From positions 186,001 to 250,000 of the forward strand of contig NZ_JARACK010000002.1 of assembly GCF_028767185.1 (NCBI RefSeq): a stretch of 64,000 bases of DNA, in the 5' to 3' direction. Position numbers and translations under genes: made by a program. Under the pieces are notes generated by a model that ran no database searches, had not been told where the DNA came from, and was given only the letters and a program-made list of their open reading frames with translations. Below are positions 44,881 through 63,671 of this stretch, piece by piece. Numbering within the stretch: position 1 is the stretch's first letter; each line of letters opens with the position of its first letter. The stretch is from Mangrovimonas aestuarii. GTDB lineage: Bacteria; Bacteroidota; Bacteroidia; Flavobacteriales; Flavobacteriaceae.

Positions 44881-45327
44881 TTAACTATTTAGCAATAACT
44901 TTTTTTTCTGCTCAGCCAAAACTCCTTTAAGGAGTTCAAAGAGATCCTTCTTTAAAGGTTTATAGTTGTCCCAATGGATTCTTATTGAATTTAAAAGCTC
45001 TTTATGTTCGTTAGTATACACTGTAGCACGATTGGTGTTATCAGATTTTTGGATAAGCCTATCCAAACTATTTTCGTGCTTTGAAATCTCATTTATCAGT
45101 TCTTTGTTTTTAGTTTGAATTTGGGATAACCGACCAATTAGAACTTTAGTTTTTTCAAAAATAGATTGGTCAATGAGGTTGATGGTATAAGTCTTTATCA
45201 TGTCATCAAAGAAGAGACATTCATCGTCAATAAAATTTAATTCCGATAACCAACGTATGGAATCAGCATGTAAATCCTTAATGTTAGGCCATTCCAAAGA
45301 CTCTGTGTTTGATGAAGGTGAATTCAT
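44881..45327 (-). CDS. Helical hypothetical protein
   Basis: This 148-residue soluble protein has long amphipathic helices (FEKTKVLIGRLSQIQTKNK; ENSLDRLIQKSDN) that probably form a coiled coil. It has no signal, membrane helix or recognised domain. It is the last gene of the stress cluster side before the convergent bestrophin. No FNR-like box is seen upstream; an inverted repeat (CCACG.CTG / CAG.CGTGG, 45345-45378) lies in its leader. Confidence 0.6.
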   Translation of the reverse strand: MNSPSSNTESLEWPNIKDLHADSIRWLSELNFIDDECLFFDDMIKTYTINLIDQSIFEKTKVLIGRLSQIQTKNKELINEISKHENSLDRLIQKSDNTNRATVYTNEHKELLNSIRIHWDNYKPLKKDLFELLKGVLAEQKKKLLLNS

Positions 45328-45518: not shown

Positions 45519-46895
45519 TTACCAAATGAGTCTTACTGTTTCGTACAGTTTAGGGGTTTTAACTTTCCATTGAAATGTATTATTAAGCTTAACACAAAAA
45601 GCCTGTTGGGCATTTGGTTCACCATGCACAAGAAAAACTTCTTCTGGAACATTTTTGATATCATTTAGCCAATGTAAAAGTTCTTGTTGATCTGCATGGG
45701 CTGAAAGACTTTCTAAACTGTGAATTTTGGCTTTTACAGGATAATATTTTCCGAAAAATTTTATTTCATGGGTACCTTCCTTTAATGCACGCCCTCGAGT
45801 ACCTTCTGCCTGAAACCCTACTAGTAAAACTCTTGTTGTAGGTTTGTCTATAAACTGTTGTAGATAAGTAAGAACACGTCCGCCAGTAACCATGCCGCTC
45901 CCCGCTATTACTATTTTACTGCCAGGATTATCTATTGTTTCCCAAGTTTCAGCATACGATTGTACCATGTTTAGATGATTGCACATGGCATAATATTCAT
46001 GCATGTCCATTTTATGCCAATCGGGAAACTGTTGGAACACATCAAAAACATTGTTTCCCATTGGACTGTCAACATAAATGGGAATGTTTGGTATTTTTCT
46101 CTTTTTGTAGAGTTGCCACAGTAAAAAGCTTATATATTGAATCCGTTCAACTGCAAAACTGGGAATTATTAAAAGTCCATTATCTTTGATGGTTTGATTG
46201 ATAAGGTCGATAAATTTTGCTTCCACATCTTCTTTATCATGTAGTCTATCACCATAGGTGCTTTCAATAAACAGGTAATCTGCCCATTCAGGATGTTTTG
46301 GATCTCTCAAAAGCAAATCGTTGGGTCGGCCAACATCACCAGAAAAAACAAACCGTTTGCCTGAAATATCTAATTCAATAAAAGTCGCACCAATAATATG
46401 TCCGTTGTATTGAAACCGAGCAGAAACAGTATCTGATAATGATATCCATTCGCCTTCATTTACAGACTTAAATCGCCTAATAGTAGATTCGGCTTCTGTA
46501 AGATTAAAAAATGGGAGTGCAGGTTGATGTAGAGTAAAACCTTCTTCGTTAGCTTTTTCGGCTTCCTCTTCATGTATTTTAGCACTGTCCTTAAGGATAA
46601 TTTCAGCAACTGCTAGAGTAGGGAGAGTTCCTAAAACGTTACCTTTAAAACCTTGTTTCACCAAACGAGGTAAATAACCAACATGATCCAGATGTCCGTG
46701 CGTTAGCAGAACAAATTCAATGGAGCTTACATCGATAGGAAGCGGATTCCAGTTTAGCAACCTTAATTCTTTTAAGCCTTGAAAAACACCGCTGTCTATC
46801 ATCAGGTTAACGTCTGGTGTTTTCAAAAAAAACTTTGATCCGGTGACTTCACCAGCGGCTCCCAAAAAAGTAATATTTACCGACGAAGTTTTCAT
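45519..46895 (-). CDS. Beta-CASP metallo-beta-lactamase-fold RNA nuclease
   Basis: This 458-residue protein has metal-binding HxHxDH at 66-71 (THGHLDHVGYL), followed by a beta-CASP cap (GSGMVTGGRVLTYLQQF) and RMMBL domain (SLSAHADQQELLHWL, VFLVHGEPNAQ). This is CPSF73/RNase-J-like, so RNA cleavage is the likely activity. An ATG at 46928 would overlap the upstream gene by 29 bp, so the ATG at 46895, 4 bp past that stop, is preferred. It is the last gene of the operon led by the first universal stress protein and so shares its FNR-like box. Confidence 0.87.
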   Translation of the reverse strand: MKTSSVNITFLGAAGEVTGSKFFLKTPDVNLMIDSGVFQGLKELRLLNWNPLPIDVSSIEFVLLTHGHLDHVGYLPRLVKQGFKGNVLGTLPTLAVAEIILKDSAKIHEEEAEKANEEGFTLHQPALPFFNLTEAESTIRRFKSVNEGEWISLSDTVSARFQYNGHIIGATFIELDISGKRFVFSGDVGRPNDLLLRDPKHPEWADYLFIESTYGDRLHDKEDVEAKFIDLINQTIKDNGLLIIPSFAVERIQYISFLLWQLYKKRKIPNIPIYVDSPMGNNVFDVFQQFPDWHKMDMHEYYAMCNHLNMVQSYAETWETIDNPGSKIVIAGSGMVTGGRVLTYLQQFIDKPTTRVLLVGFQAEGTRGRALKEGTHEIKFFGKYYPVKAKIHSLESLSAHADQQELLHWLNDIKNVPEEVFLVHGEPNAQQAFCVKLNNTFQWKVKTPKLYETVRLIW

Positions 46896-46899
46896 GTTA

Positions 46900-47736
46900 T
46901 TAATCATTACATAAAAATTCAACTTCATTAAGTACTTTTTCTTTTCTTATATCAGATAGTCCCATATGATCAAGGTAAAATGGTTCTTTTACTAGTTGTC
47001 TGCAAAGAACAATGCCGCGGTTTAATAAAAAAGATTTTTCCTTGGATGATAAAAGAGATGAAACGGTAATAGGATAAAGTTTTAAATCGTCTATTCTATC
47101 TTTTAATGCGTGATCTTTTGGGTAATCCCAACTTAATAGGAACATGCCTGAGCATTTTCCAAAATTTAAGGCGTCTTCTGTAAATCTTGTATTGGTAACT
47201 ACCCATGGAGGGTTTAATGCATTATTAGTTCTTGAAGACCAATTTGCTTTTATATCATTATAACGGGAAAGTATGTATAGCGGAACTTTTATATTACAGG
47301 TTTGTCCTCGGTCGCTATGAAACTTACACTCAACAAGAGTGGTGTGTTTATTGCTTGTGGCGACTACATCTACTTCATGTTTTACACATTTTCCCTGTAA
47401 AGTTTTACTAACATATGTATCGTATCCACTATGTTTCAACAAAGCACTTATAAAGTGCTCAAAAGGAAACCCAGTTGGACCTAAGTCGTAAATAGCACGT
47501 TTAAGTTTATACCTAGAAGCACAGGGAGTTTCAAATTCCCTTAGAAGGGAATAAGCCCTGTTGTAAATGGCTTCGGTAGTGATGTCCGGGTATATTTCCT
47601 TTTCTATTACTTTTAAAATAGAATTGATAGTGTGTAAGGAGGCACCAGATTTCTTAAGTGAATTCTTAAGTTTGTTTCTGGAAAACTCAACTTTTTCCCC
47701 AGAAGCTTTAACGATATCAGGTTGAAACTTTGCCAT
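46900..47736 (-). CDS. ATP-cone domain fused to a PD-(D/E)xK restriction-endonuclease-like domain
   Basis: This 278-residue protein has an N-terminal ATP-cone (about 5-90; IVKASGEKVEFSRNKLKNSL), a nucleotide-sensing module best known in ribonucleotide reductases. It is followed by an Mrr-like nuclease core: Asp123 in HEVDVVAT and Glu136-x-Lys138 in VECKFHSDRG, all catalytic positions present. The combination suggests a nucleotide-gated nuclease. It lies 24 bp after the BaeRF-like gene and 4 bp before the beta-CASP nuclease gene. Confidence 0.82.
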   Translation of the reverse strand: MAKFQPDIVKASGEKVEFSRNKLKNSLKKSGASLHTINSILKVIEKEIYPDITTEAIYNRAYSLLREFETPCASRYKLKRAIYDLGPTGFPFEHFISALLKHSGYDTYVSKTLQGKCVKHEVDVVATSNKHTTLVECKFHSDRGQTCNIKVPLYILSRYNDIKANWSSRTNNALNPPWVVTNTRFTEDALNFGKCSGMFLLSWDYPKDHALKDRIDDLKLYPITVSSLLSSKEKSFLLNRGIVLCRQLVKEPFYLDHMGLSDIRKEKVLNEVEFLCND

Positions 47737-47760
47737 GATATTAGCAGGCAGAAAGTACTA

Positions 47761-48165
47761 TTAAACGTTTTGATTGTAATAATTCCTAACCCAAGCCTTA
47801 ACTTGATTGGTTGTCATGCTATCGGCCTTTTTGACCTCTTTTACCTTTGAAGAAATAGCTTTATGGTGTTCCTGAAGGTCTTTATAGAGTTTAGAATTGG
47901 TTTCGGCAGGTCCAAAAATTACAATAGACTCACAGTCTTTAAGGTGTTCGGCAACAGTATTGAAATACGCTCTAAGCTGGTGTTTTTCACGTTCCAAATA
48001 TTTACTGTCCTGAACAACATCTTGTGGGCCCCATTGACCGCGACCAGAGCCACCGGAAACGTGGAATGTGTCTACGTTAGATTCGATTGTTTCTAACTCT
48101 TCGTTTGTTTCATTAAGGGTTACTATATGTGCTTTTTCCTTGTCTATCCAAATGCCTGTTTTCAT
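47761..48165 (-). CDS. BaeRF-like (bacterial eRF1-related) small protein
   Basis: This 134-residue protein has an RNase-H-like core starting GIWIDKEKAHIVTLNE and a later ESIVIFGPAETNSKLYKDL. That pattern resembles the middle domain of eRF1/Pelota-related bacterial proteins. A GGSGRGQWGPQD loop lies at about residues 38-49. Full-length relatives (BaeRF) are linked to ribosome rescue or hibernation; Rv2629 of the mycobacterial DosR regulon is one, as I recall. It is shorter than those, so the link is tentative. It lies 12 bp after the universal stress protein gene. Confidence 0.6.
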   Translation of the reverse strand: MKTGIWIDKEKAHIVTLNETNEELETIESNVDTFHVSGGSGRGQWGPQDVVQDSKYLEREKHQLRAYFNTVAEHLKDCESIVIFGPAETNSKLYKDLQEHHKAISSKVKEVKKADSMTTNQVKAWVRNYYNQNV

Positions 48166-48177
48166 GTTTAATATGTT

Positions 48178-49029
48178 TTAGTTAATAATATCGTGCATTA
48201 CCAAAATAGGGACTTTAGACTGGTAGGTTATTCCTTTAACCAAAGGTTTGCTTAAAATACTTCCAAAAAACATGTGCTTTTTGTTGATGAAGGCGATCAT
48301 ATCGCTGTTCCTGCTTTCAACAAAACAATTTATAGCAGTTTGAATGTTGATGTTTGATAGGGAATGGAATGAATGATCTATTGCCTCAAAATATTCCTGT
48401 AATAGTTTTTTGTTATTAAGTTGTTCGTTGTCTAAATGATCTTCTTTAGACACGTGCAATACCCTTATTGAAGCGTGGTTGATTTTGGCAATTTCAATAA
48501 GGTGTTGCAGTTCTTGTAACTTGATATTGATTTTATAATTGGTAGGGAAAACAATTTCTTTGGGAAGTTTTAGGGAAGCATCTTCTGGAATTACCAATAT
48601 TGGACATTGCCGTACTTTTTCCATGACATAAACCGCATTGCTGCCAAAAAATGAACCTTTGGAGCCCGTTGCTCCTTTAGTTCCCATAATTACCAATTGA
48701 ATGTCATGTTTTTCGGCTTCAGCTTTAATAGCTTCTACAGGACTATTAAATAAGGTTATGGTTTCAAAGTGATGTTTTGGATTTTTTTGGTCTCTAAAGT
48801 TTATCATATCCATCAATTTACCCATCTCGTTCTCAGCTTCCAATTTTGCAGCCTCAAAATTAGCTTCTCCGGGCTCAGGTACCATTAAGCTATTAAGATT
48901 ATAACCTGAAGCTGTGAAGGCGTTTAGAACATAAAATGTACAAGGATCATTTTTGAACAATTCCATGGCATAGCACATGGCGTGCCATGCATTTTTTGAA
49001 AAATCTGTGGGTAAGAGAATTTTCTTCAT
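48178..49029 (-). CDS. Tandem universal stress protein (UspA family) 1
   Basis: This 283-residue protein carries two UspA-like domains. The first holds the ATP-binding pattern G-x2-G-x9-G-S (MGTKGATGSKGSFFGSNA); the second is degenerate. It heads the operon usp, BaeRF-like, ATP-cone nuclease, beta-CASP nuclease. A perfect TGAT-N4-ATCA palindrome lies 52 bp upstream of the ATG, centred 33 bp from a TATCTTAA -7-like box. It is probably a stress-induced, ATP-binding cytoplasmic protein. Confidence 0.87.
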   Translation of the reverse strand: MKKILLPTDFSKNAWHAMCYAMELFKNDPCTFYVLNAFTASGYNLNSLMVPEPGEANFEAAKLEAENEMGKLMDMINFRDQKNPKHHFETITLFNSPVEAIKAEAEKHDIQLVIMGTKGATGSKGSFFGSNAVYVMEKVRQCPILVIPEDASLKLPKEIVFPTNYKINIKLQELQHLIEIAKINHASIRVLHVSKEDHLDNEQLNNKKLLQEYFEAIDHSFHSLSNINIQTAINCFVESRNSDMIAFINKKHMFFGSILSKPLVKGITYQSKVPILVMHDIIN

Positions 49030-49080: not shown

Positions 49081-49092
49081 TGATAAAAATCA
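49081..49092. promoter_or_regulatory. FNR-like operator TGAT-N4-ATCA, usp1 operon
   Basis: The perfect 12-bp palindrome TGATAAAAATCA lies 52 bp upstream of the usp1 ATG. It is one of six sites with the same layout in this cluster. Confidence 0.7.
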
Positions 49093-49141: not shown

Positions 49142-49984
49142 TTATTTGCTTTCGTGAAGTACTAAAAATGGGATAGTGGTATGATAGCTAATGCGTTCGA
49201 CAACAGGTTGAAATAGCAGTTTTTGAAAGTAATTGAGATTCTTGGCAACCATTACAATTATATCGATGTTTCTGCTCTCTACAAAACATTCAACGGCTTC
49301 CTCTACATGAGGGTTGGTAAGAAAGTAGAAGTTATGCGGCAAATCGTCAAAAATGTCCCCAAGTAAAGCTTTACTTCTCAATTGCTCATTGTTTAACTCA
49401 GTTTTTGATTTGGAGATATGAAGTACACTTAACGAAGCATGATATGTCTTAACCATATTGCTAATAGTTTGAAGGATACTTAAGTTATATTGTACTGAAA
49501 AATCCGTAGGGAAAGCAATTTCATCTAAAGGCTTAAAAGAGGCTTGCTCGGGAACTATAAGCGTATCACAGGGTACTTTGGTAATAACATTCGCAGTATT
49601 ACTGCCAACAATCAATTTTTTGAGTCCAGAAGCACCTTTGGTACCCATAACAATCATACTAATATTGTTCCTTTTTGTATAACTGCGCAATACATCGACC
49701 AAAGAGCCTTGTTCATTGGCTGTAACAAATTGGTGTTTGCTGCTCAAAGGGTTTGCCTTTATTTTAGGAAGCAATTCATGTAGTGTATGCTTGGTGCTTC
49801 CTGATATGCTTTTTTCAACTAAATTATGAGATGGATAGTAGGCCATATTGCCTCCTGAAAAGCCATATTGATGGTCTACATGCAACAAATGAAACGTACA
49901 AGAGGTAAATTGAAAATAACCCAATGCATATTCAAGAGCATTCCATGCGTTATCGGAAAAATCTGTAGGAAGCAGTATATTCAT
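49142..49984 (-). CDS. Tandem universal stress protein (UspA family) 2
   Basis: This 280-residue, two-domain UspA protein has the ATP-binding pattern in MGTKGASGLKKLIVGSNTA in the first domain. It is a paralogue of the other two Usp genes here. It forms its own transcription unit, with the FNR-like box 50037-50048 and a consensus TAAATTTG -7 box at 50006-50013. It sits between the usp1 operon and the receiver-Crp regulator gene. Confidence 0.88.
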   Translation of the reverse strand: MNILLPTDFSDNAWNALEYALGYFQFTSCTFHLLHVDHQYGFSGGNMAYYPSHNLVEKSISGSTKHTLHELLPKIKANPLSSKHQFVTANEQGSLVDVLRSYTKRNNISMIVMGTKGASGLKKLIVGSNTANVITKVPCDTLIVPEQASFKPLDEIAFPTDFSVQYNLSILQTISNMVKTYHASLSVLHISKSKTELNNEQLRSKALLGDIFDDLPHNFYFLTNPHVEEAVECFVESRNIDIIVMVAKNLNYFQKLLFQPVVERISYHTTIPFLVLHESK

Positions 49985-50036: not shown

Positions 50037-50048
50037 TGATTATTATCA
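50037..50048. promoter_or_regulatory. FNR-like operator TGAT-N4-ATCA, usp2
   Basis: The perfect palindrome TGATTATTATCA lies 53 bp upstream of the usp2 ATG and 10 bp beyond the stop codon of the regulator gene. Confidence 0.75.
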
Positions 50049-50057
50049 GTAAAAGGT

Positions 50058-51104
50058 TTAATAAACGTTTTGGAGTTTTTCCAAGTCTATAATTTTTATG
50101 TTTCTCCCTTCAATTTCGATAATCCCCTCTTTTTTAAGATTGGATAAGGATCTAATAAGGGTTTCGGTGGCAATACCGGCAACGCTAGCTAAATCGTTTC
50201 TTGAGATTTTAATAGGAGCGTTTGGAGAGACGTTGAGCTTTTCTGAAAATTTAAGTAATGTCTTAGCCGTTTTCTTTCCTACTGAACCATAGGCCATTTG
50301 AAGCAATTGCTCTTTTACCGATTTTAAATCTTCAGTAAGCAATTCAATAAGGTTTAGCGTTAAATTAGGATTGTCTTCCAGTATGGTGTTAAGTTCAGTT
50401 TTTGTAATGCCAGCTAATTCGGTTTGGCTTAGTGCTGTAGCATAATCTTGATAGGGGATATTTTCGGTAAAGGAAGTATAGCCAAACAACATATCGGCAT
50501 TGTAAAGCGCCGTGATTAACTCTTTGCCATCTATGTCGAATGAATGTGTTTTTACTGCTCCTTTTATTATAAGGTAAATATAATTGGAATGGTCTCCTTT
50601 ACTGTAAATAACATCTCTATTATTAAAAATGAATGTTTGCCCATTGTCGTAAAAATAATTTTTAAGATCATTAAGATCATTAATTAGATTATCTGCGTTT
50701 TTGGCTACATTGGTATTGTTTTGTTCTTTAAATATCTGTGACCTGGCAATACGACTTTCTATGGCACTAATAAGTTCCTCTTCACTAAATGGCTTAGTGA
50801 TATAGTCATCTGCACCAAGGGACATACCTTTCCTAATATCTTGGCGTTCTGTTTTTGCCGATAAAAACAAAAAAGGAATAAATTTGGTTTGTTCACCTTC
50901 ACCAAGAGCTTTCAATACACTGTAACCATCAAGCTCAGGCATCATAATATCACATACAATAATGTCTGGTAAAAGGTTTTTTGCATAGTCCAGCCCTAGT
51001 TTTCCATTGGGAGCTGTAATTACATTATAGTTTGCTAGCTCTAAAAGTTCAGCTGTATTTTCTCTAATGGCTATATCGTCCTCTATTAATAGAATGGTTT
51101 TCAT
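50058..51104 (-). CDS. Response regulator with Crp/Fnr-type output (receiver + cNMP-binding + winged helix)
   Basis: In this 348-residue protein, residues 1-120 are a CheY-like receiver with phospho-acceptor Asp52 (IIVCDIMMPELDG). About 150-265 is a Crp-like effector jelly roll (YSKGDHSNYIYLIIKGAVK). About 270-345 is a winged helix whose recognition helix TETLIRSLSNL retains Glu314 and Arg318, the residues that read TGA in Crp/FNR proteins. It joins the FixJ and FixK steps in one polypeptide. The ATG overlaps the kinase stop by 4 bp. It is the likely activator at the TGAT-N4-ATCA boxes. Confidence 0.9.
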   Translation of the reverse strand: MKTILLIEDDIAIRENTAELLELANYNVITAPNGKLGLDYAKNLLPDIIVCDIMMPELDGYSVLKALGEGEQTKFIPFLFLSAKTERQDIRKGMSLGADDYITKPFSEEELISAIESRIARSQIFKEQNNTNVAKNADNLINDLNDLKNYFYDNGQTFIFNNRDVIYSKGDHSNYIYLIIKGAVKTHSFDIDGKELITALYNADMLFGYTSFTENIPYQDYATALSQTELAGITKTELNTILEDNPNLTLNLIELLTEDLKSVKEQLLQMAYGSVGKKTAKTLLKFSEKLNVSPNAPIKISRNDLASVAGIATETLIRSLSNLKKEGIIEIEGRNIKIIDLEKLQNVY

Positions 51105-52345
51105 GATTTGGCTTTATTTGGTATAGAAATATAAAAGGTAGATCCCTCATTTTCCTTGCTAACAAAGCTTATAGATCCCCCTAATTTTATAAGATGGGTT
51201 TTTACAATGTTTAGCCCAATTCCTGTCCCTTGAGTAATCAGAGCATTTTCAGCCCTAAAATACCGTTTAAATATATTCTTTTGATCTGCTCTTGGTATTC
51301 CAATGCCTTGATCCTTAACCTGAATATTTGTGTAGTTATTATCCTGGTTGACTATCACGTCTATGGTAGAGCGTTCAGACGAGTACTTTATAGCATTGTG
51401 TACTAGGTTGGACAATGCTAATTCCAGGATTTTTTCATCTTGGTAAACTGAAATCTCATCGATGTTTTGGGGATAATTAATGTTTTGTCCTTCCTTGAGA
51501 AGCAAATTGGAATTGTACACTACTTCGTTTATTACCTTACTCAATTTAAATTCACTATAGTTATAGCTAACCTTACCGCTCTCTAATCGTTCTATTGAAA
51601 GAAAGTCATTGAGAATATTGTTAAGGTAATGCACCTTATTGGTGATGGTGGTAATATGTTTATCCCGTTTTAATTGTTGTTCTGTTAACTTGTATTTGCC
51701 CAACAGCATGACCGAGGTTAAAATACCACTTAAAGGGGTTTTAAATTCATGTGACACCATTGATAGGAACTTTGTTTTGAGTTCTCCGAGCTCTTTTTCC
51801 TGTTTTAATGCCGTTTTTAATTTGTTTTCTGCACGTACCCTTTTTTGGTTTTCGGTTTTTAGTTTTACGTTTACTTCTTGAAGTTGGTTAATAGAATCGC
51901 GAAGCTCGTGAGTGCGATGAGCAACCTTCTCTTCTAATTCAGTATTTAACTTTTGTATTTCTAATTCTTGGGCTTTTCTTTTTGAAATATCTATAACCAA
52001 TGCCATAACATAAGTTTCTCCTTTAAAGTGAATAGGGTTCAATCCTGTTTCAATAGGGAAAACTTGACCGTCTTTGTTTACGCCATAAATATCACGACCT
52101 TGACCCATTTGCCTTTTTTCGGATTGACCAACAAATGTCTCAAAATGCGAGTGGTGCTTATGATGGTATTTTGAAGGAATTAAAAGGTTTAAGTCTTGAT
52201 TAATAAGTTCATCTTTGTCATAACCAAACATACGCTGGGTTGATTCATTTATAGCAACGATTTTTTGATTTCTATCTACTACCACAACGCCTTCTGATAC
52301 TGCCTCAAATAGAAGGTTAAATAAATTTTCTTTTTGGTTGAACAT
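51101..52345 (-). CDS. PAS-domain sensor histidine kinase, FixL-like
   Basis: This 414-residue kinase is soluble, without transmembrane helices. The PAS domain (about 8-122) has FixL-type features. His64 stands where haem ligand His200 is in Bradyrhizobium FixL, and Arg84, exactly 20 residues later, matches distal Arg220 (MGQGRDIYGVNKDG). A coiled coil (125-190), HisKA with phospho-acceptor His199 (MVSHEFKTPL) and a HATPase domain (DQGIGIP, GTGIGLNIV) follow. It is translationally coupled to the receiver-Crp regulator. Oxygen or redox sensing is inferred. Confidence 0.9.
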   Translation of the reverse strand: MFNQKENLFNLLFEAVSEGVVVVDRNQKIVAINESTQRMFGYDKDELINQDLNLLIPSKYHHKHHSHFETFVGQSEKRQMGQGRDIYGVNKDGQVFPIETGLNPIHFKGETYVMALVIDISKRKAQELEIQKLNTELEEKVAHRTHELRDSINQLQEVNVKLKTENQKRVRAENKLKTALKQEKELGELKTKFLSMVSHEFKTPLSGILTSVMLLGKYKLTEQQLKRDKHITTITNKVHYLNNILNDFLSIERLESGKVSYNYSEFKLSKVINEVVYNSNLLLKEGQNINYPQNIDEISVYQDEKILELALSNLVHNAIKYSSERSTIDVIVNQDNNYTNIQVKDQGIGIPRADQKNIFKRYFRAENALITQGTGIGLNIVKTHLIKLGGSISFVSKENEGSTFYISIPNKAKS

Positions 52346-55553: not shown

Positions 55554-57947
55554 TTATTTTGATTTTGTTTTTTCTGATAGTAAAGTTTCCGCATTATTGA
55601 TGTTTTCTATGCCTTTAATTAAAGCATCGGGATTGAATGAAATACTATCTATACTCGATTCTACCAAAAAAGAGGTAAATTCAGGGAAATCGCTGGGAGC
55701 CTGACCGCAGAGCCCAATTCTTGTATGCGAAGTATTGGCTTTTTCTATGGCAAGGGAAATCATTTTTTTGGCAGCGGCATCGTTTTCATTAAAAAGTCCC
55801 GACATCAATTCAGAATCCCTGTCCACACCTAGAGTAAGTTGTGTAAGGTCGTTCGATCCAATTGAAAAACCATCGAATATTTTCGCAAATTCTTCAGCAA
55901 GGATAACGTTACTGGGTATTTCTACCATAGAATAGATTTCAAGTTTATTGACTCCCTGAATTAATCCATTTTGCTTCATCATGTCGACTACCTTGCGTCC
56001 TTCATCAAGCGTTCTGCAAAATGGTACCATCACCTTTAAATTGATAAAGCCCATATCATTTCTAACCTTTTTAATGGCTTCACACTCTAGGGCAAACCCT
56101 TCTTTATAGGAGTTGTTGTAATATCGTGATGCTCCTCTAAATCCCAGCATCGGGTTATCTTCACTAGGCTCAAATTGATATCCTCCAATGAGGTTGGCAT
56201 ATTCATTAGTTTTAAAGTCACTCAGCCTAACAATAACATCTTTGGGGTAAAAAGCAGCGGCAATAGTGGCGATGCCTTGTGATAGTCTATCTATAAAATA
56301 ATCTTCTTTACGCTCATAGAATCGGGTGAGCTTCTCTATATAAGCTTTTGTAGCTTCATCTTTTAGGGTGTTAAATGCTACAAGCGCCATAGGATGAATC
56401 TTAATAAGATGGGTGATAATGAATTCCATGCGCAATAATCCAACACCGTCATTTGGGAAAAACGAGAGTTCAAAGGCTTTGTCGGGATCGGCAAGAATGA
56501 GCATAGCTTTTGTTTTGGGCATTTTTATTTTGGCAAAATCAATTTGTTGAGTTTCAAACTTTAAACTCCCATCGTAAACATGACCGGTACTACCGTCAGC
56601 GCAGGATACAGTAATATTCTGAAAATCGGTAAGAACTTCTGTTGCATCACTACAGCCAACAATGGCAGGTACGCCCAATTCCCTTGCCACAATAGCGGCG
56701 TGGCTTGTTCTGCCTCCTTTATTGGTGATTATGGCATTTACTTTTTTCAGTAGTGGATCCCAATCTGGGGTAATGGAATCGGTGACGATAATATCGCCTG
56801 GATTTAGTTTGTCGCCCTCTTTAGGAGAATAGAGTCGTTTTGCTATCCCTGTAACTATTTTATGGCCAATGGCACTTCCTTGAGTGATTGGTTTGCCTTT
56901 TTCTGCTAATTTGTATGTGGTATGAAATGTTTTAGTTTGTTCTTTGTGAATGGTTTCAGGGCGTGCCTGAATGATGTAAAGTTGTTGGGTTAAGCCATCT
57001 TTTGCCCATTCTATGTCCATGGGTTTGCCATAATGGTTTTCAATTAAAATAGCCCATTTTGATAATTGATGAACTTCATTATCTGATAGTACAAACTCCT
57101 GTTGTTTGTCTTTTGGTGTATTGATATTTATTGTGGCAGCTTGTTCGTTCGATGTGGCATAGATCAAGGTTTTCTCCTTACTGCCCATTTTTTTCTGAAT
57201 AATAGCATAAAACCCTTGCTCAAGTGTTGGTTTAAAAACATAAAATTCATCGGGGTTAACCGTGCCCTGAACCATGTTTTCCCCTAATCCCCAAACACCG
57301 GAAAGGAGCACGACATTGTTAAAACCAGACTCAGGGTCAATGGTAAATCCAACTCCCGAACAGGCTTTGTCGGCACGTACCATTTTTTGAATTCCTACAG
57401 AAAGGGCAACCAATTCATGCTTAAAACCTTTATCCTCTCGATATTTGATAGCCCTATCGGTATAAAGGGATGCAAAGCATTTTTTTACGGCTTGCAGCAG
57501 ACTTTCATTTCCCTTAACATTTAAATACGTATCGTGAAGCCCAGCGAAACTGGCATCGGGCAAATCCTCTGCAGTGGCACTGCTGCGCACGGCAACCTCA
57601 ATAGAATCCTTGCCTCTTACCTTAGCGTAGGTATCCACTAAAACCTTCGAAAAAGCATCCGAAAACTGTCCGCCCATAATAAGGTTTCTAGCCTTATTGC
57701 CTACGTCATTTAGGTTGGAGTAGGAGTTTTTATCAAGTTCTTTAAGTATGCTTTTCAGCTTTTTTGTTAGGTTATTTTCTTTTAGGAACATCCTAAAAGC
57801 ATAAGCTGTGGTTGCAAAACCATCTGGAACGGTAATGCCTTCTTCGGTTAATTCGTTGTAGAGTTCGCCCAAGGATGCATTTTTTCCTCCTACAGTTTGA
57901 ATATCTCTTATTCCAATCTCACTGAACGTCTTAATAAGTGCTTCCAT
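55554..57947 (-). CDS. ppsA: Phosphoenolpyruvate synthase
   Basis: This 797-residue enzyme converts pyruvate and ATP to PEP, AMP and phosphate. The N-terminal ATP-grasp region starts DIQTVGGKNASLGELY. The swivelling phosphohistidine domain has GGRTSHAAIVAREL (His near 415), and the C-terminal TIM barrel ends with the catalytic Cys in GLCGQAPSD. The length is that of complete PpsA. A perfect FNR-like box lies 60 bp upstream with a TACATTAG -7-like box 33 bp away. Induction under low oxygen would favour gluconeogenic flux from pyruvate. Confidence 0.95.
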   Translation of the reverse strand: MEALIKTFSEIGIRDIQTVGGKNASLGELYNELTEEGITVPDGFATTAYAFRMFLKENNLTKKLKSILKELDKNSYSNLNDVGNKARNLIMGGQFSDAFSKVLVDTYAKVRGKDSIEVAVRSSATAEDLPDASFAGLHDTYLNVKGNESLLQAVKKCFASLYTDRAIKYREDKGFKHELVALSVGIQKMVRADKACSGVGFTIDPESGFNNVVLLSGVWGLGENMVQGTVNPDEFYVFKPTLEQGFYAIIQKKMGSKEKTLIYATSNEQAATININTPKDKQQEFVLSDNEVHQLSKWAILIENHYGKPMDIEWAKDGLTQQLYIIQARPETIHKEQTKTFHTTYKLAEKGKPITQGSAIGHKIVTGIAKRLYSPKEGDKLNPGDIIVTDSITPDWDPLLKKVNAIITNKGGRTSHAAIVARELGVPAIVGCSDATEVLTDFQNITVSCADGSTGHVYDGSLKFETQQIDFAKIKMPKTKAMLILADPDKAFELSFFPNDGVGLLRMEFIITHLIKIHPMALVAFNTLKDEATKAYIEKLTRFYERKEDYFIDRLSQGIATIAAAFYPKDVIVRLSDFKTNEYANLIGGYQFEPSEDNPMLGFRGASRYYNNSYKEGFALECEAIKKVRNDMGFINLKVMVPFCRTLDEGRKVVDMMKQNGLIQGVNKLEIYSMVEIPSNVILAEEFAKIFDGFSIGSNDLTQLTLGVDRDSELMSGLFNENDAAAKKMISLAIEKANTSHTRIGLCGQAPSDFPEFTSFLVESSIDSISFNPDALIKGIENINNAETLLSEKTKSK

Positions 57948-58006: not shown

Positions 58007-58018
58007 TGATGTATATCA
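58007..58018. promoter_or_regulatory. FNR-like operator TGAT-N4-ATCA, ppsA
   Basis: TGATGTATATCA lies within the longer palindrome AAATGATGTATATCATTT, 60 bp upstream of the ppsA ATG. It could in principle also act on the divergent dodecin relic. Confidence 0.75.
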
Positions 58019-58930: not shown

Positions 58931-59578
58931 CTATTTTGTTAAATACTCTCTGAACCAGGCTACAGACAAATTGGTAACCTGTTCTAATTTGCCCAGTTCA
59001 ACAAACAAATGAGTAGCCATGGGTACTATTAATAGTTTTTTTATATTGTTCATCTTTTCTAACGCCTTTCGGTTTAGTGCAATTACCACCTCGTCCCATC
59101 CTCCAACGATTAGCAGTGTGGGAGCTGTAACTAGGGCTAATTCTTCATCTCCAGACAAATCTGGTCGACCACCACGGGAAATAACAGCTCTAATTTTACT
59201 ACCCAGCCCTGCTGCAGCACGCAAGGCACATGCCGCTCCGGTACTAGCACCGAAATATCCAATGGGCAAGCTAGTCGAGAAGTCTTGGTTTTGTATCCAT
59301 TGGGTTACCTTAATGAGTCTTTCGGTAAGGAGGTTAATGTTAAATCTATTCTCATAAACGGTATCCTCTTCTTCAGTTAAAAGATCGAAAAGCAATGTTG
59401 CAAAGTTGTTATTGTTTAACGCATTAGCCACAAAGGTATTTCTAGGGCTTAATCGGCTGCTTCCACTGCCATGAGAAAAAATAACCATGCCTCGGGCCAT
59501 GTCTGGAAGCGATAGAATTCCTTTTAGAAATCGACCTTCTATTGGAATATTTATCTCGTTTGATAAGAACGTTTTCAT
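58931..59578 (-). CDS. Dienelactone hydrolase-family alpha/beta hydrolase
   Basis: The protein has 215 residues. The oxyanion segment is VIFSHGSGSSRLSPRN and the nucleophile elbow is GYFGASTGAACAL (Ser112). The acid lies in VGGWDEVV (Asp162) and the His in ATHLFVELG near the C-terminus, so the triad is complete. The ATG overlaps the preceding stop by 4 bp. Partnership with the phosphoribosyltransferase is conserved in other bacteria, but the substrate is unknown. Confidence 0.85.
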   Translation of the reverse strand: MKTFLSNEINIPIEGRFLKGILSLPDMARGMVIFSHGSGSSRLSPRNTFVANALNNNNFATLLFDLLTEEEDTVYENRFNINLLTERLIKVTQWIQNQDFSTSLPIGYFGASTGAACALRAAAGLGSKIRAVISRGGRPDLSGDEELALVTAPTLLIVGGWDEVVIALNRKALEKMNNIKKLLIVPMATHLFVELGKLEQVTNLSVAWFREYLTK

Positions 59579-60522
59579 TCTTTAGTTTGTTTGTCTTTTT
59601 GATAAATGTCTTCCAATTTTATTGGTTGTCCTTTGTCGCCCTTAATATTTAAGTCGTACCTAATCTGTATTTTAGTTCCAATAGGAGCGTAATAATATAT
59701 TATCCATGCATCAGCTTCTTTAACACCAATGCAGCCATTAGAGTATGCCTTTTCAAGGGTGTTGGGGTTGGTTGTAGGGTGAATCATCTGTCCGTAGCGC
59801 TCGCCGTTCAGTTCGGTTTCAATCCATGGAATTTGTGGCATTAATGTGGTTTTTCCATCATCCCTTTTAGTGTAATAATAGCGTCTGTCATCAACAGGGT
59901 TATAGAAATCGGGGTTTCTCACATGGCGGACAATAGTTCCCGTGCCGGTTTTGGTCTGTAAGCTGGTTAACTTATCGTTCATAGCCAGATATTTCTCTGT
60001 GTTCTTGCCCACACGTATAGGGAATGTATAGATAAGACTATCACCTTCATAAATACGTAATTTGAATTCCGGTATGTTGATATCTATTAGTGTTTTTTCG
60101 AAAGTATCAACAATCTTTTTCGAGAGTAAGGCATTCGGAATTAAAATGGAATCGTTTGGTTTGAGAATAACCATTTTTCGTTGATTGTATACAAACGAAT
60201 CTTTTGCCATCATTCTGTAGTAATCGGTATTGGCTAGAGTGGTGATGATAGATGGGTTAGCCCTTACAATAATGTGCTCAGAAAGCTGATAATTTATTAA
60301 AGGGGTGTATTGGTTTACCAATGAATCTATATAAGTAAAATAATTTTCTATTAGGACAGGTTTATCGACATGAACCCATTTTTCGGGAACAGAATCGATA
60401 TAGGAAACCTTTTGAATTGTGATTTGTTCTGAAGTAGCTGTTTCAAAGGAGAAGCTGTAACAATGTAGAAGACTAATCAAGAGTAATACGAGCATTGGCA
60501 GACAAATGCTATGAGTGTTCAT
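59575..60522 (-). CDS. L,D-transpeptidase (YkuD domain)
   Basis: This 315-residue protein has an N-terminal signal or anchor (ICLPMLVLLLISLLHCYSF) and a C-terminal YkuD domain, with catalytic Cys264 in YSNGCIGV and the upstream His in QMIHPTTNP. It makes 3-3 peptidoglycan cross-links or attaches proteins to the wall. It heads the operon with the hydrolase and phosphoribosyltransferase, and a perfect FNR-like box lies 47 bp upstream. This links wall remodelling to the proposed low-oxygen regulon. Confidence 0.87.
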   Translation of the reverse strand: MNTHSICLPMLVLLLISLLHCYSFSFETATSEQITIQKVSYIDSVPEKWVHVDKPVLIENYFTYIDSLVNQYTPLINYQLSEHIIVRANPSIITTLANTDYYRMMAKDSFVYNQRKMVILKPNDSILIPNALLSKKIVDTFEKTLIDINIPEFKLRIYEGDSLIYTFPIRVGKNTEKYLAMNDKLTSLQTKTGTGTIVRHVRNPDFYNPVDDRRYYYTKRDDGKTTLMPQIPWIETELNGERYGQMIHPTTNPNTLEKAYSNGCIGVKEADAWIIYYYAPIGTKIQIRYDLNIKGDKGQPIKLEDIYQKDKQTKE

Positions 60523-60537
60523 ATCTCATCATTTTTT

Positions 60538-60545
60538 TAAAGTTA
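60538..60545 (-). promoter_or_regulatory. -7-like element of the L,D-transpeptidase operon
   Basis: Minus-strand TAACTTTA has one mismatch to TAnnTTTG and is centred 33 bp from the FNR-like box. Confidence 0.5.
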
Positions 60546-60568
60546 GTGTTTTATCTTATTGTTTAAAA

Positions 60569-60580
60569 TGATGAAAATCA
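60569..60580. promoter_or_regulatory. FNR-like operator TGAT-N4-ATCA, L,D-transpeptidase operon
   Basis: The palindrome TGATGAAAATCA lies 47 bp upstream of the ATG and just beyond the stop of the ABC ATPase gene. Confidence 0.72.
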
Positions 60581-60587
60581 GTGATAA

Positions 60588-61262
60588 CTATCTTATTATT
60601 CTCCCATCTTCCATATCGATAATTCTATCTGTTTGTTTGGCAAAATCCATATCGTGCGTTACGATTAATAAACTCAGTCCTTGTTCCTCTTTAAGCCGTT
60701 TGAAGATATTTAATACGTTTTCTGAATTGTAACTGTCCAAATTCCCAGTAGGTTCATCACCCATCAATATTACAGGATCATTTATTAGGGCACGGGCAAT
60801 GGCAACACGTTGCTTTTCACCACCCGAAATGCGATTGGCTGTTTTTTGTGCCAAATGGTCTATGTGAAGCATTTTTAACTTTTCCATAGCGGTATGCTCT
60901 ATTTCTGCATTTGTTTTTGCAGCTAGTTTTCTAGCGGGTAGCATAACATTTTGCAATACCGTAAACTCAGAAAGCAAATAATGAAACTGAAATACAAAGC
61001 CAATATTTTTGTTCCTGATTTTTGATAGTTCGTTTGGGTGCTTGCCTGTAATCAATTCTTCATTTAGGTAGAGTTGTCCTTCATAATCTGTATCCATGGT
61101 AGAAAGGATGTAAAGCAAGGTAGATTTTCCTGACCCGGATTTCCCCATAATCGAAGCAAATTCTCCTTTTTTTACCTTGAATGTAATATCACGGAGCACA
61201 TGAAAAGGCACTGGCTTTTTAAAGTGTTTATTAATATGTTCTGTTCGCAGTACTAAATCCAT
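60588..61262 (-). CDS. ABC transporter ATPase (LolD/MacB type)
   Basis: This 224-residue ATPase has Walker A GKSGSGKST (40-48), signature ISGGEKQRVAIARAL and Walker B VILMGDEPTGNLD. The Y-loop and SGGEKQR pattern put it in the MacB/LolD branch that works with FtsX-type permeases. It is the third gene of the operon adaptor, permease, ATPase, 9 bp after the permease. Confidence 0.93.
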   Translation of the reverse strand: MDLVLRTEHINKHFKKPVPFHVLRDITFKVKKGEFASIMGKSGSGKSTLLYILSTMDTDYEGQLYLNEELITGKHPNELSKIRNKNIGFVFQFHYLLSEFTVLQNVMLPARKLAAKTNAEIEHTAMEKLKMLHIDHLAQKTANRISGGEKQRVAIARALINDPVILMGDEPTGNLDSYNSENVLNIFKRLKEEQGLSLLIVTHDMDFAKQTDRIIDMEDGRIIR

Positions 61263-61271
61263 AAGTATTTG

Positions 61272-62534
61272 TTAAGTGCCTCGAATAATTGTTACCGGAT
61301 CTATACGTTTCGCCCTTTGGGAAGGGAAATAACCGGCAATAAAAGTGGATAATAGAGCAAATATGATGGCGATACCATAGTACCATGGATTGTAATTAAT
61401 AGGGTAGGTAGTTATGGTAGGTAATGCTTCGGTTTTAAACGGAATCTGATCTATAATTCTGGATAGAAAAAAACCAATGGCTAGCCCTAAAATACCACCT
61501 ATAACACCAATAATTACAGCCTGACTCATAAAGATAATTTGAACATCGGTTCCAGAAAACCCCGTGGCTTTTAATATGGCAATATCCTTCATCTTTTCAT
61601 AAATAAGCATATTTAGGATGTTATAAATCCCAAATCCGGCAACGATTAAAAGGGTAATGGAAACGGCATATGTAATGAGATTACGAATGTTAGATCCCGT
61701 TTCAAACTGGGCATTGGCTTGATTGATGTCTATCGCCTTTACCTGGAATTGCCTTTCCAGCTCTTGAGCCATGGTTGTGGCGCGATTTATATCGAAAAGT
61801 TTGATGTTAATATCGGTAACATAGTTTTCGGCTTCCCCCATAATCCGCTGCACGGTCTTTAAATTGGCATAGCTTTGAATATTGTCTATATCTGCAATAC
61901 CACTTTGATAAATGCCCACAATCTTTAGAGGAAAAAGCCCTCCTTTTACCGTATTGATCTGAACCCGATCGCCAAGGTTTAACGACATTTTTTTGGCAAG
62001 ACCAGCTCCCAGAAGAATTCCGTTGTCTGTGTTATTAAGGGCTTCTGGAGATCCTTCAATGATGTAATTGGCCATATTGGAGAGGCGTGCTTCTTCCATA
62101 ATATCCACACCAGTTAAGTTACCTCCAAGGTCGATGGATCCGGACAGGTAAAATACCTGTGCTCGAAGTTGGGGGGTTGCGCCATTAACGTTTTTGTGGT
62201 TTTTAAGGTAATTAAGGATAGGTAGAGCATTATGGATTTTCTTTTGGCTTTGTTTAGGCTTGACTGAATGCACCACGTTAAAAGCTTCGCTGAATTTCTT
62301 ATAAAGTGATATTGGTTGTTTTTTCGAAGGTTCTATTTCATTGTAGAGGTGGATATGTGGCGTTTGGTTTAAAACGAGATCATCGAGCATTTTATTAAGC
62401 CCTGTCATAAAGCTCACAAGGGTGATATAGGCGCCAATACCAAAGGTAACCCCCAATGAAGCAGTAACAGTCGATTTCATTTTGGTGACCAGGTGCGTCT
62501 TTGCGATACCGAGTAATACCCTCCAATTAATCAT
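61272..62534 (-). CDS. FtsX-like ABC permease (MacB/LolCE type)
   Basis: The 420-residue protein has four transmembrane helices, the first at about 20-45. A large periplasmic domain of about 220 residues (46-270) follows, then three C-terminal helices with the FtsX signature (IYEKMKDIAILKATGFSGTDVQ). It couples ATP hydrolysis to mechanical work in the periplasm rather than classical transport. Its ATG overlaps the adaptor stop by 4 bp. The substrate could be lipoprotein, lipid or a small molecule. Confidence 0.9.
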   Translation of the reverse strand: MINWRVLLGIAKTHLVTKMKSTVTASLGVTFGIGAYITLVSFMTGLNKMLDDLVLNQTPHIHLYNEIEPSKKQPISLYKKFSEAFNVVHSVKPKQSQKKIHNALPILNYLKNHKNVNGATPQLRAQVFYLSGSIDLGGNLTGVDIMEEARLSNMANYIIEGSPEALNNTDNGILLGAGLAKKMSLNLGDRVQINTVKGGLFPLKIVGIYQSGIADIDNIQSYANLKTVQRIMGEAENYVTDINIKLFDINRATTMAQELERQFQVKAIDINQANAQFETGSNIRNLITYAVSITLLIVAGFGIYNILNMLIYEKMKDIAILKATGFSGTDVQIIFMSQAVIIGVIGGILGLAIGFFLSRIIDQIPFKTEALPTITTYPINYNPWYYGIAIIFALLSTFIAGYFPSQRAKRIDPVTIIRGT

Positions 62535-63607
62535 GATTTTGGTTTTACAAGTGCTGTTGTCTCATCTATACCATCCAATATTTCGATACGCTCAAGGTTT
62601 TGCAGACCGGTAACTACTTCAACCCAACCAGAATCTGTAAGTACTTTATTGTTGGATATATATGTTTTGGGGATGGTTAGGGCTTGCTCTTTGGTGGCAA
62701 TAATAATATTACCTTCGCCAGATAGACCAGGGTATAGTACTTTAGGCGAATCTACAAAAATAGCTTCTACCAAAAAGGTTTGTGATCGTTCGTCTTTTTT
62801 AGGGTATATTTTATCAACTGTGGCTTCAAAGACTTTACTTTTATAGGCATCTAAGGTGATGAGTGCTTTTTGGTTTAAAGCAACTTTTACAATATCCTCT
62901 TCGTCAATAAGCATTTCTATAATGAATATTTTGTCACTCCCAACGGTTCCTAAAGGTTCCTGTATTAAAACCGTTTCTCCCGGATTTTTGTATAAGGCGT
63001 AAACTTTACCATTAATTTTACTTTTTATGGTAAAATCTTTAGTGTTAATAAGCGAAGTCCTGTAATTATTCTGAGCCTGTTTTAATTGTGTTTCCAGTTC
63101 ATTTTCCATCCGAAAACGTTTGTTTTTCAGTAGGGAAAGTTTGTTGGACGAAAGTTCGTAAGCGAGTTGCTTATTGTCCAATTCCATTTTAGAACCTATT
63201 TTTTGATTCCATAGGTTCTTTTGTCTGAAGTAGTTGATGGAATCATTTTTGTAACTAAGCTGCGCTGCGAGGATTTCATCTTCAATTTCATCTAAAATAG
63301 CCGCCCTCCCTTGGTAGTTCTCCTTGGCAAGCTGTAGGGAGAGTTTAGCATTTTCTGTATTGAGTTTTGGTGTGTTGTTTATTACCTGTATAATACTATC
63401 TCCCTTTTTAACATTGTCACCTTCCTCCAAATAATTAAAGTCTAGAATGCCGCTTACTGCCGAATAAATTTCATAAAGGCTGTCTGGTTGTATGGTGACA
63501 GAGGAATACACGGATTCCGTGAGAGGTACTTTTTGGGGATATATACGCTCTTCATCTTTGTTACATGAAAATAGAACGAGTAAAATAATCAAATAGCATT
63601 TGGACAT
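62531..63607 (-). CDS. HlyD/MacA-type periplasmic adaptor lipoprotein
   Basis: This 358-residue protein has lipobox LFSC (Cys15). The N-terminal biotinyl-lipoyl half (SGILDFNYLEEGDNVKKGD), a helical hairpin (about 75-185), the second lipoyl half (SKINGKVYALYKNPGE) and a beta-barrel domain follow. It is the first gene of the efflux operon. A perfect TGAT-N4-ATCA box lies 53 bp upstream. No outer-membrane TolC-like gene is visible in the window. Confidence 0.9.
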   Translation of the reverse strand: MSKCYLIILLVLFSCNKDEERIYPQKVPLTESVYSSVTIQPDSLYEIYSAVSGILDFNYLEEGDNVKKGDSIIQVINNTPKLNTENAKLSLQLAKENYQGRAAILDEIEDEILAAQLSYKNDSINYFRQKNLWNQKIGSKMELDNKQLAYELSSNKLSLLKNKRFRMENELETQLKQAQNNYRTSLINTKDFTIKSKINGKVYALYKNPGETVLIQEPLGTVGSDKIFIIEMLIDEEDIVKVALNQKALITLDAYKSKVFEATVDKIYPKKDERSQTFLVEAIFVDSPKVLYPGLSGEGNIIIATKEQALTIPKTYISNNKVLTDSGWVEVVTGLQNLERIEILDGIDETTALVKPKS

Positions 63608-63659: not shown

Positions 63660-63671
63660 TGATAATTATCA
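63660..63671. promoter_or_regulatory. FNR-like operator TGAT-N4-ATCA, efflux operon
   Basis: The fully symmetric ATGATAATTATCAT (core 63660-63671) lies 53 bp upstream of the adaptor ATG. The -7-like element at 63629-63636 (minus GAATTTTA) is weak but has the TTT in register 33 bp away. Confidence 0.72.

Follow-up and report, generated by a model that had tools for sequence, protein, structure and literature searches.

In the 64,000-nucleotide stretch analyzed here from the genome of the marine bacterium Mangrovimonas aestuarii (contig NZ_JARACK010000002.1, positions 186,001–250,000; hereafter "the window", in which all coordinates are counted), the minus strand between positions 45519 and 49029 carries a four-gene unit that encodes a Usp protein, a 134-aa protein with a predicted eRF1-middle-domain fold, an ATP-cone fused to a PD-(D/E)xK nuclease, and a beta-CASP metallo-RNase. 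We found that the last two genes are the most constant element of this unit and that their partners differ by lineage; all four together are an arrangement of the Flavobacteriaceae, where Usp and the 134-aa gene join the pair as lineage-dependent partners. A low-oxygen or energy-stress setting of the Flavobacteriaceae operon is likely. The original prediction had described one tight operon of four genes that lie 12, 24 and 4 bp apart, and the open reading frames bear out both the gene identities and these distances. The 4-bp gap holds if the beta-CASP gene begins at 46895; its longest possible frame begins at 46928 and would overlap the nuclease gene by 29 bp.

The ATP-cone nuclease and its beta-CASP partner

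The 278-aa nuclease of the Mrr/AF1548 type (46900–47736, minus strand) was characterized by Pfam searches, a predicted model and a sequence alignment. It scores above the Pfam cut-offs for the ATP-cone (PF03477: 26.7 bits, cut-off 25.8) and for Mrr_cat (PF04471: 26.0 bits, cut-off 21), and below that for AF1548-like_C (21.9 bits, cut-off 23.9). In the AlphaFold model (built from 46 sequences, mean pLDDT 93) residues 3–82 (47491–47730) match the ATP-cones of NrdR and ribonucleotide reductase (RNR) with Z 9–12 and rmsd 1.5–2.4 Å over 72–81 residues in all NrdR/RNR comparisons except 7agj (4.0 Å); several of these cones were solved with ATP/dATP. The ATP-cone identity proposed earlier is thus corroborated by profile and fold alike, with the difference that the NrdR and RNR cones are joined to a DNA-binding or reductase domain, whereas here the cone is followed by a nuclease. 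Residues 86–278 (46900–47481) comprise the nuclease and an AF1548-like C-terminal domain, and in the model they match AF1548, a protein of unknown function (1y88: Z 22.9, rmsd 3.1 Å over 182 residues, 30% identity), which shares both domains but is a 199-residue chain without the ATP-cone and aligns only from residue 86 of the nuclease. The D...ExK core is intact, as originally predicted: D123, E136 and K138 are the same in all 43 sequences (down to 33% identity) of an alignment of the window's own protein with its counterparts from 42 of the 49 class-wide loci described below (seven were omitted because their frames are cut, split or long-started). According to the model, the 278-aa protein combines a true ATP-cone fold with an intact nuclease core, and we predict that it has nuclease activity.

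The modeled nuclease domain also matches those of Cdn1, Card1 and Can2 (Z 10.7, 9.9 and 9.8, respectively; rmsd 3.0–3.3 Å over 114–120 residues), in which a PD-(D/E)xK nuclease is likewise fused to a sensor of adenine nucleotides, and PADLOC reported weak similarity to ZorD1 and to a CARF-PD-(D/E)xK model (E about 2e-5). The protein falls outside the CARF-type CRISPR ancillary nucleases (Can2/Card1), as its N-terminal sensor is an ATP-cone and not a CARF domain. The M. aestuarii genome contains two ATP-cone matches, this nuclease and an 826-aa frame that is putatively the RNR large subunit. Pairwise alignment of the two cones revealed VxK..G, K and T positions in common (the roles of these residues are assumed here), and with the key positions largely kept relative to the RNR-like protein, the nuclease cone is predicted to bind ATP/dATP.

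A second ATP-cone nuclease gene, 47% identical, faces the operon copy in one locus (L144:10227–11069, minus strand). In three genomes of the phylum, a 511-aa fusion of an ATP-cone with a glucoamylase-like protein is encoded one small gene after the nuclease (L220:8351–9886, L221:8317–9852, L222:1241–2776; Pfam was run on the L220 protein only). This second cone at first looked fused to beta-CASP, and the partner turned out to be the glucoamylase-like protein; here the cone could be a transferable energy switch for a sugar enzyme.

The last gene of the unit (45519–46895, minus strand) encodes a 458-aa beta-CASP metallo-RNase of the TTHA0252/CPSF73 type. Its Lactamase_B, Beta-Casp and RMMBL domains are all over the Pfam cut-off, and all 16 aligned sequences keep the metal motifs HxHxDH, H166, D187 and H400 unchanged. 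The closest solved structure is that of the RNase TTHA0252 (E 8e-70), followed by type VII Cas14, archaeal aCPSF1/FttA and CPSF73; with TTHA0252, CPSF73 and Cas14 it shares the whole beta-CASP chain together with the metal motifs. The best NCBIfam name for this protein is type VII CRISPR Cas14 (NF045584), which we reject: the score is 359.5 bits against a cut-off of 800, only model positions 2–425 of 612 are covered, the C-terminal part of Cas14 is absent, and the operon context is different.

Conservation of the nuclease pair and its partners

The neighborhood of the nuclease was compared in three sets of genomes. In the class survey, the nuclease query matched 50 of 295 genomes, including that of M. 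aestuarii; two fragment hits were dropped, and 49 other places were taken (contig ends shorten seven of these stretches to less than 11 kb). A scan of genome contigs provided the best 80 loci, whose titles name Flavobacteriaceae genera or the family itself (the placement of the genera in this family is our assumption), except for three that name only Bacteroidia or Bacteroidetes; as the best matches, they are biased towards relatives. In a draw from the phylum, 49 of 296 genomes matched, and we chose 20 regions from them, 19 of them outside the class. Neighbors were labeled only if similar to one of 29 queries, so other partners may have been missed, and the partner counts for the flanks of the best 80 loci require that at least half of the query be covered.

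The beta-CASP gene lies directly downstream of the nuclease on the same strand in 79 of the best 80 loci. Class-wide, 18 of 49 loci have it next to the nuclease in the same orientation, though upstream instead in two (L033 and L055), and a nineteenth locus (L058) has the same-strand order nuclease, phosphorylase, PRPP synthetase, beta-CASP. The two genes are adjacent in 8 of the 20 regions chosen from the phylum draw. Among 72,556 plasmid records the nuclease was found in two, from Pontibacter (L240) and from Criblamydia (L241, Chlamydiota), both of which carry the pair, while none of 50,697 phage records contained it. Linkage beyond close relatives, on which the original prediction depended, thus holds for the pair, which is conserved far beyond them; the full set of four is the form seen in Flavobacteriaceae.

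Of the best 80 loci, 61 have a same-strand Usp gene no more than four genes upstream of the nuclease, and 26 have the 134-aa gene no more than three genes upstream; the series Usp, 134-aa, nuclease, beta-CASP is contiguous in 17 and contains one inserted gene in 7 more. A homolog of a 148-aa helical protein encoded downstream of the unit in the window (44881–45327, minus strand), which we count as a member of the wider conserved cluster, is encoded on the same strand among the first four genes that follow the nuclease in 40 of these loci; in M. aestuarii a Pfam search with this protein gave nothing over the cut-off. The flanks further contain Hsp20 (24 loci), a D-2-hydroxyacid dehydrogenase (16), an MscS-type channel (14), a CRP-type response regulator (30) and a kinase (28). 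The recurrent Flavobacteriaceae partners are thus Usp, the eRF1-middle-domain protein, Hsp20, the mechanosensitive channel and the D-2-hydroxyacid dehydrogenase. Hsp20 was found in 4 of 49 class and 0 of 20 phylum stretches, and PEP synthase in 4 of 49 and 1 of 20, respectively. In Maribacter, Arenibacter and their relatives, the mechanosensitive-channel gene separates the nuclease from the 134-aa or Usp gene (L085:7079–7978 and similar loci; identified by Pfam in L085 and by similarity elsewhere).

Outside the best 80 loci, genes of the AMP-phosphorylase type and for PRPP synthetase stand beside the two nucleases in 7 of 71 loci: L031, L053, L058 and L059 from the class, L224 from the phylum draw (with another gene between them), and the Pontibacter and Criblamydia plasmids, the latter of which additionally carries phosphoketolase, glycogen phosphorylase and acetate kinase genes. 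The L031 and L241 phosphorylases score 475.4 and 506.5 bits, below the cut-off of the AMP_phos model (TIGR03327, 535), and 585.4 and 601.6 bits, above that of the broader ARCH_P_rylase model (TIGR02645, 434.6); the nearest solved chain is 4ga5, which we take to be an archaeal AMP phosphorylase. We also opened five stretches of proteobacterial plasmids, in four of which (L242–L245, from Ciceribacter, Legionella fallonii, Caulobacter and Pseudorhizobium) the beta-CASP, phosphorylase and PRPP-synthetase genes occur together, three of the four also having a gene annotated as phosphoketolase or xylulose 5-phosphate 3-epimerase. In the fifth, the beta-CASP gene lies among Usp, Hsp20, nitroreductase and Fnr genes. 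None of the five stretches contains an annotated ATP-cone gene, and these records also gave no match in the plasmid search with the nuclease.

The eRF1-middle-domain protein and the CRP/FNR-type box

The 134-aa protein (47761–48165, minus strand) stays under the cut-offs of Pfam (eRF1_2: 19.8 bits of 27.1; baeRF_family2: 15.2 of 26.9) and of the NCBIfam models Rv2629 and AOC03 (16.5 and 16.0 bits; cut-offs 320 and 330). Its AlphaFold model (pLDDT 79, with loop residues 37–45 below 50) matches the middle domains of Pelota, eRF1, Balon and Rv2629 with Z 10–13 (10.0–11.4 for Balon/Rv2629). The ribosome-rescue-like fold suggested earlier can therefore be specified: judging by the model, the protein most closely resembles the middle domains of eRF1/Pelota in fold and, within bacteria, the hibernation factors Balon/Rv2629 (baeRF). 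It differs from these three-domain factors in that its 134 aa form a single domain, without the N-domain that binds the decoding centre. Three baeRF families reduced to a single middle domain are described in PMC6514570, where it is also argued that most baeRF proteins, which have no Gln, are non-catalytic. In our protein the GGQ-equivalent loop reads G-P-Q-D, and G-[P/T]-Q-D in its clade, with G46, Q48 and D49 invariant in 26 of 26 sequences aligned for the Flavobacteriaceae set (the window's own and 25 of the 26 homologs found). Among the 30 best loci of the class, counting the window's own copy, 9 have Q in this column and 9 have His, and 7 are gapped there; we dropped the idea that the GPQD loop marks a family-wide peptidyl hydrolase because the Gln, kept throughout the operon clade, is present in only 9 of these 30. 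According to PMC10901736, Balon genes lie in stress operons together with RaiA, Hsp20 and OsmC, and the setting observed here, with Hsp20 in the flanks noted above and an HPF gene once after the pair (L038), is alike. The 134-aa protein may bind the ribosome.

The Usp gene that opens the unit (48178–49029, minus strand; 283 aa, Usp domain at residues 1–148, PF00582 83.5 bits, cut-off 24) is preceded by a CRP/FNR-type box at 49081–49092 (TGATTTTTATCA in the minus-strand reading; pattern TGATN4ATCA), centered 57 bp before its start. The original prediction held that one FNR-like promoter drives all four genes; the box is present, and the tight spacing suggests that it controls the entire unit. 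The pattern occurs six times in the window against 1.7 expected, a number reached in none of 100 shuffles, and 97 times in the genome, compared with 47 for a control pattern. We inspected 28 of these sites, six in the window and 22 outside it, the latter picked from 50 listed sites mostly for A/T-rich spacers or nearness to the window. Nineteen lie inside frames and nine are intergenic; of the nine, seven lie 52–65 bp before a start and two do not. Five of these seven are in the window, before both Usp genes, PEP synthase, YkuD and the efflux operon, and the other two precede a flavin reductase gene and one for a 128-aa protein. In the best 80 loci and the window, 135 of 683 upstream windows contain the box; the 23 control half-sites, identical or complementary to it in composition, gave 0–13. 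Orthologous upstream windows are not independent. Thus, a CRP/FNR-type box stands 52–65 bp before the operon and some neighboring genes. A scan for sigma-70-type promoters around the operon gave 16 matches (shuffle mean 23.6); the interval between the two Usp genes had no minus-strand match.

Upstream of the unit, also on the minus strand, are a second Usp gene identified by Pfam (49142–49984, with its own box at 50037–50048), a gene for a protein that according to Pfam combines response regulator, cNMP-binding and CRP-type HTH domains (50058–51104), and a PAS histidine kinase gene (51101–52345). The kinase PAS domain is nearest to that of the oxygen sensor FixL (E 2e-16), and also similar to DosP; a His and an Arg align with the FixL His and Arg, whose roles at the heme we presume. 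The neighboring CRP-type response regulator is the likely reader of the box. Usp and Hsp20 belong to the DosR regulon, and with the FixL-FixJ/FixK and DosR-type regulons the present locus has in common a FixL-like PAS kinase, a CRP-type box, Usp and Hsp20, while here the response regulator itself carries the CRP HTH and the other member genes are different. A microoxia table in PMC6515984 lists Bradyrhizobium diazoefficiens bll3115–bll3117 (MBL-fold hydrolase, PRPP synthetase and thymidine phosphorylase), an indirect parallel by gene name.

Farther upstream on the same strand is the gene of PEP synthase (55554–57947, box 58007–58018). The region 59575–63607 comprises an L,D-transpeptidase (YkuD) gene (59575–60522, box 60569–60580) and a HlyD/MacB-type efflux operon (60588–63607), the first gene of which encodes a HlyD-type adaptor (62531–63607, box 63660–63671); both have the same box 52–58 bp before their starts.

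Proposed function and alternative explanations

A constant pair with lineage-variable partners fits an energy-stress module with a cone-gated nuclease. We propose, tentatively and rating the full mechanism somewhat short of an even chance, that this four-gene unit represents, in its Flavobacteriaceae version, a low-oxygen/energy-stress operon built around an ATP-cone-gated nuclease and an RNase. When oxygen falls, the FixL-like kinase would act on the neighboring CRP-type response regulator and the operon would be switched on. The ATP-cone would then control the fused nuclease according to the energy state, much as CARF domains do in Can2, Card1 and Cdn1: its occupancy by adenine nucleotides would set the shape or oligomer state of the nuclease, in the simplest case keeping it off at high ATP and releasing it when ATP drops. 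The nuclease could then cut cellular RNA, which is a likelier target than DNA because of the RNase partner and the nucleotide-salvage neighbors, and the beta-CASP enzyme would degrade the products, while the eRF1-middle-domain protein would occupy the peptidyl-transferase side of idle ribosomes. The net effect would be controlled RNA turnover and quiet ribosomes in anoxic energy shortage; in some other lineages the enzymes of the AMP-phosphorylase and PRPP-synthetase type would recover ribose phosphate from the released nucleotides. We infer the ATP gating, the RNA substrate and the translation shutdown.

Several observations weigh against this explanation. In 31 of 49 class loci and 12 of the 20 chosen from the phylum draw, no beta-CASP gene adjoins the nuclease, which may well function without this partner. 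No more than 7 of 49 class stretches have a Usp gene close to the nuclease, a single one has the 134-aa gene (L038, on the opposite strand), and neither gene was found in the 20 stretches of the phylum draw; even among the best 80 loci, only 36 of the 80 co-directional runs with the nuclease as last gene carry the exact box. In the cone, the Arg that follows Lys in the RNR-like protein of the same genome (VIKRDG) is replaced by Ala (IVKASG), a difference from NrdR/RNR cones, although some nuclease homologs have Arg at this position. The commonest neighbor outside the best 80 loci is a P-type ATPase homolog (13 of 49 class loci, 8 of 20 from the phylum and both plasmids), and CzcA-type efflux genes lie near the nuclease in 4 of 49 class loci; a role in ion or metal stress therefore fits those loci too. 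Finally, AMP phosphorylase and phosphoketolase gave no match in the M. aestuarii genome, in searches run without a positive control, and for this reason we do not adopt RNA-to-energy salvage as the role in this organism. A broader version, in which an energy-charge-gated ribonuclease system makes RNA ribose a fermentable source of ATP where the operon also includes the genes of AMP phosphorylase, PRPP synthetase, phosphoketolase and acetate kinase (the Criblamydia plasmid is an example), and is joined by ribosome-silencing and stress proteins in Flavobacteriaceae, seems unlikely to us.

The operon could instead be a co-regulated collection of stress genes that share induction and no common pathway, as the interchangeable neighbors (Usp, Hsp20, MscS, LDH and the 148-aa gene) and the patchy occurrence of the 134-aa gene would suggest; we consider this fairly unlikely, since the nuclease-RNase pair persists across partner sets, in two loci with reversed order, mostly with short gaps and on plasmids. 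Alternatively, the ATP-cone protein may be a DNA nuclease of restriction, defence or repair that travels with stress genes, its cone tying cutting to the dNTP/ATP supply. PD-(D/E)xK enzymes of the Mrr group, to which its Mrr_cat match assigns it, are mostly DNA nucleases, and the DNA enzymes AspBHI, MspJI, EndoMS and FokI are among the structural neighbors of the nuclease domain, which also speaks against our proposal; the two plasmid copies and the PADLOC similarities point the same way. The stable partnership with an RNase-type beta-CASP protein, the lack of any match in the phage records, and the stress-type box and partners in Flavobacteriaceae make a DNA nuclease unlikely; no CRISPR or defence genes are among the identified neighbors, for which no systematic scan was made. 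Least of all do we expect the beta-CASP enzyme to end transcription or mature transcripts in the manner of FttA/aCPSF1, with the ATP-cone nuclease as an accessory: the similarity to the archaeal proteins is there, but the 458-aa protein aligns only to positions 171–630 of the aCPSF1 model and so has no counterpart of its N-terminal part, presumably the KH region, and its nearest solved relative is the RNase TTHA0252, which renders this idea very improbable.

Open-access PMC articles, judged by titles and abstract openings, yielded none on the ATP-cone/PD-(D/E)xK fusion or on the operon, and in two annotated records the pair is named only by its domains. Nucleases gated by second messengers are known from CRISPR immunity. 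If our proposal of a low-oxygen/energy-stress operon is true, a nuclease equipped with a sensor of the cell's own ATP/dATP would link the energy and nucleotide state directly to nucleic-acid breakdown, with a pair that recurs across Bacteroidota and on a chlamydial plasmid, and a stand-alone eRF1-middle-domain protein would be tied to a defined stress operon. The operon may thereby let cells dismantle RNA at energy shortage.

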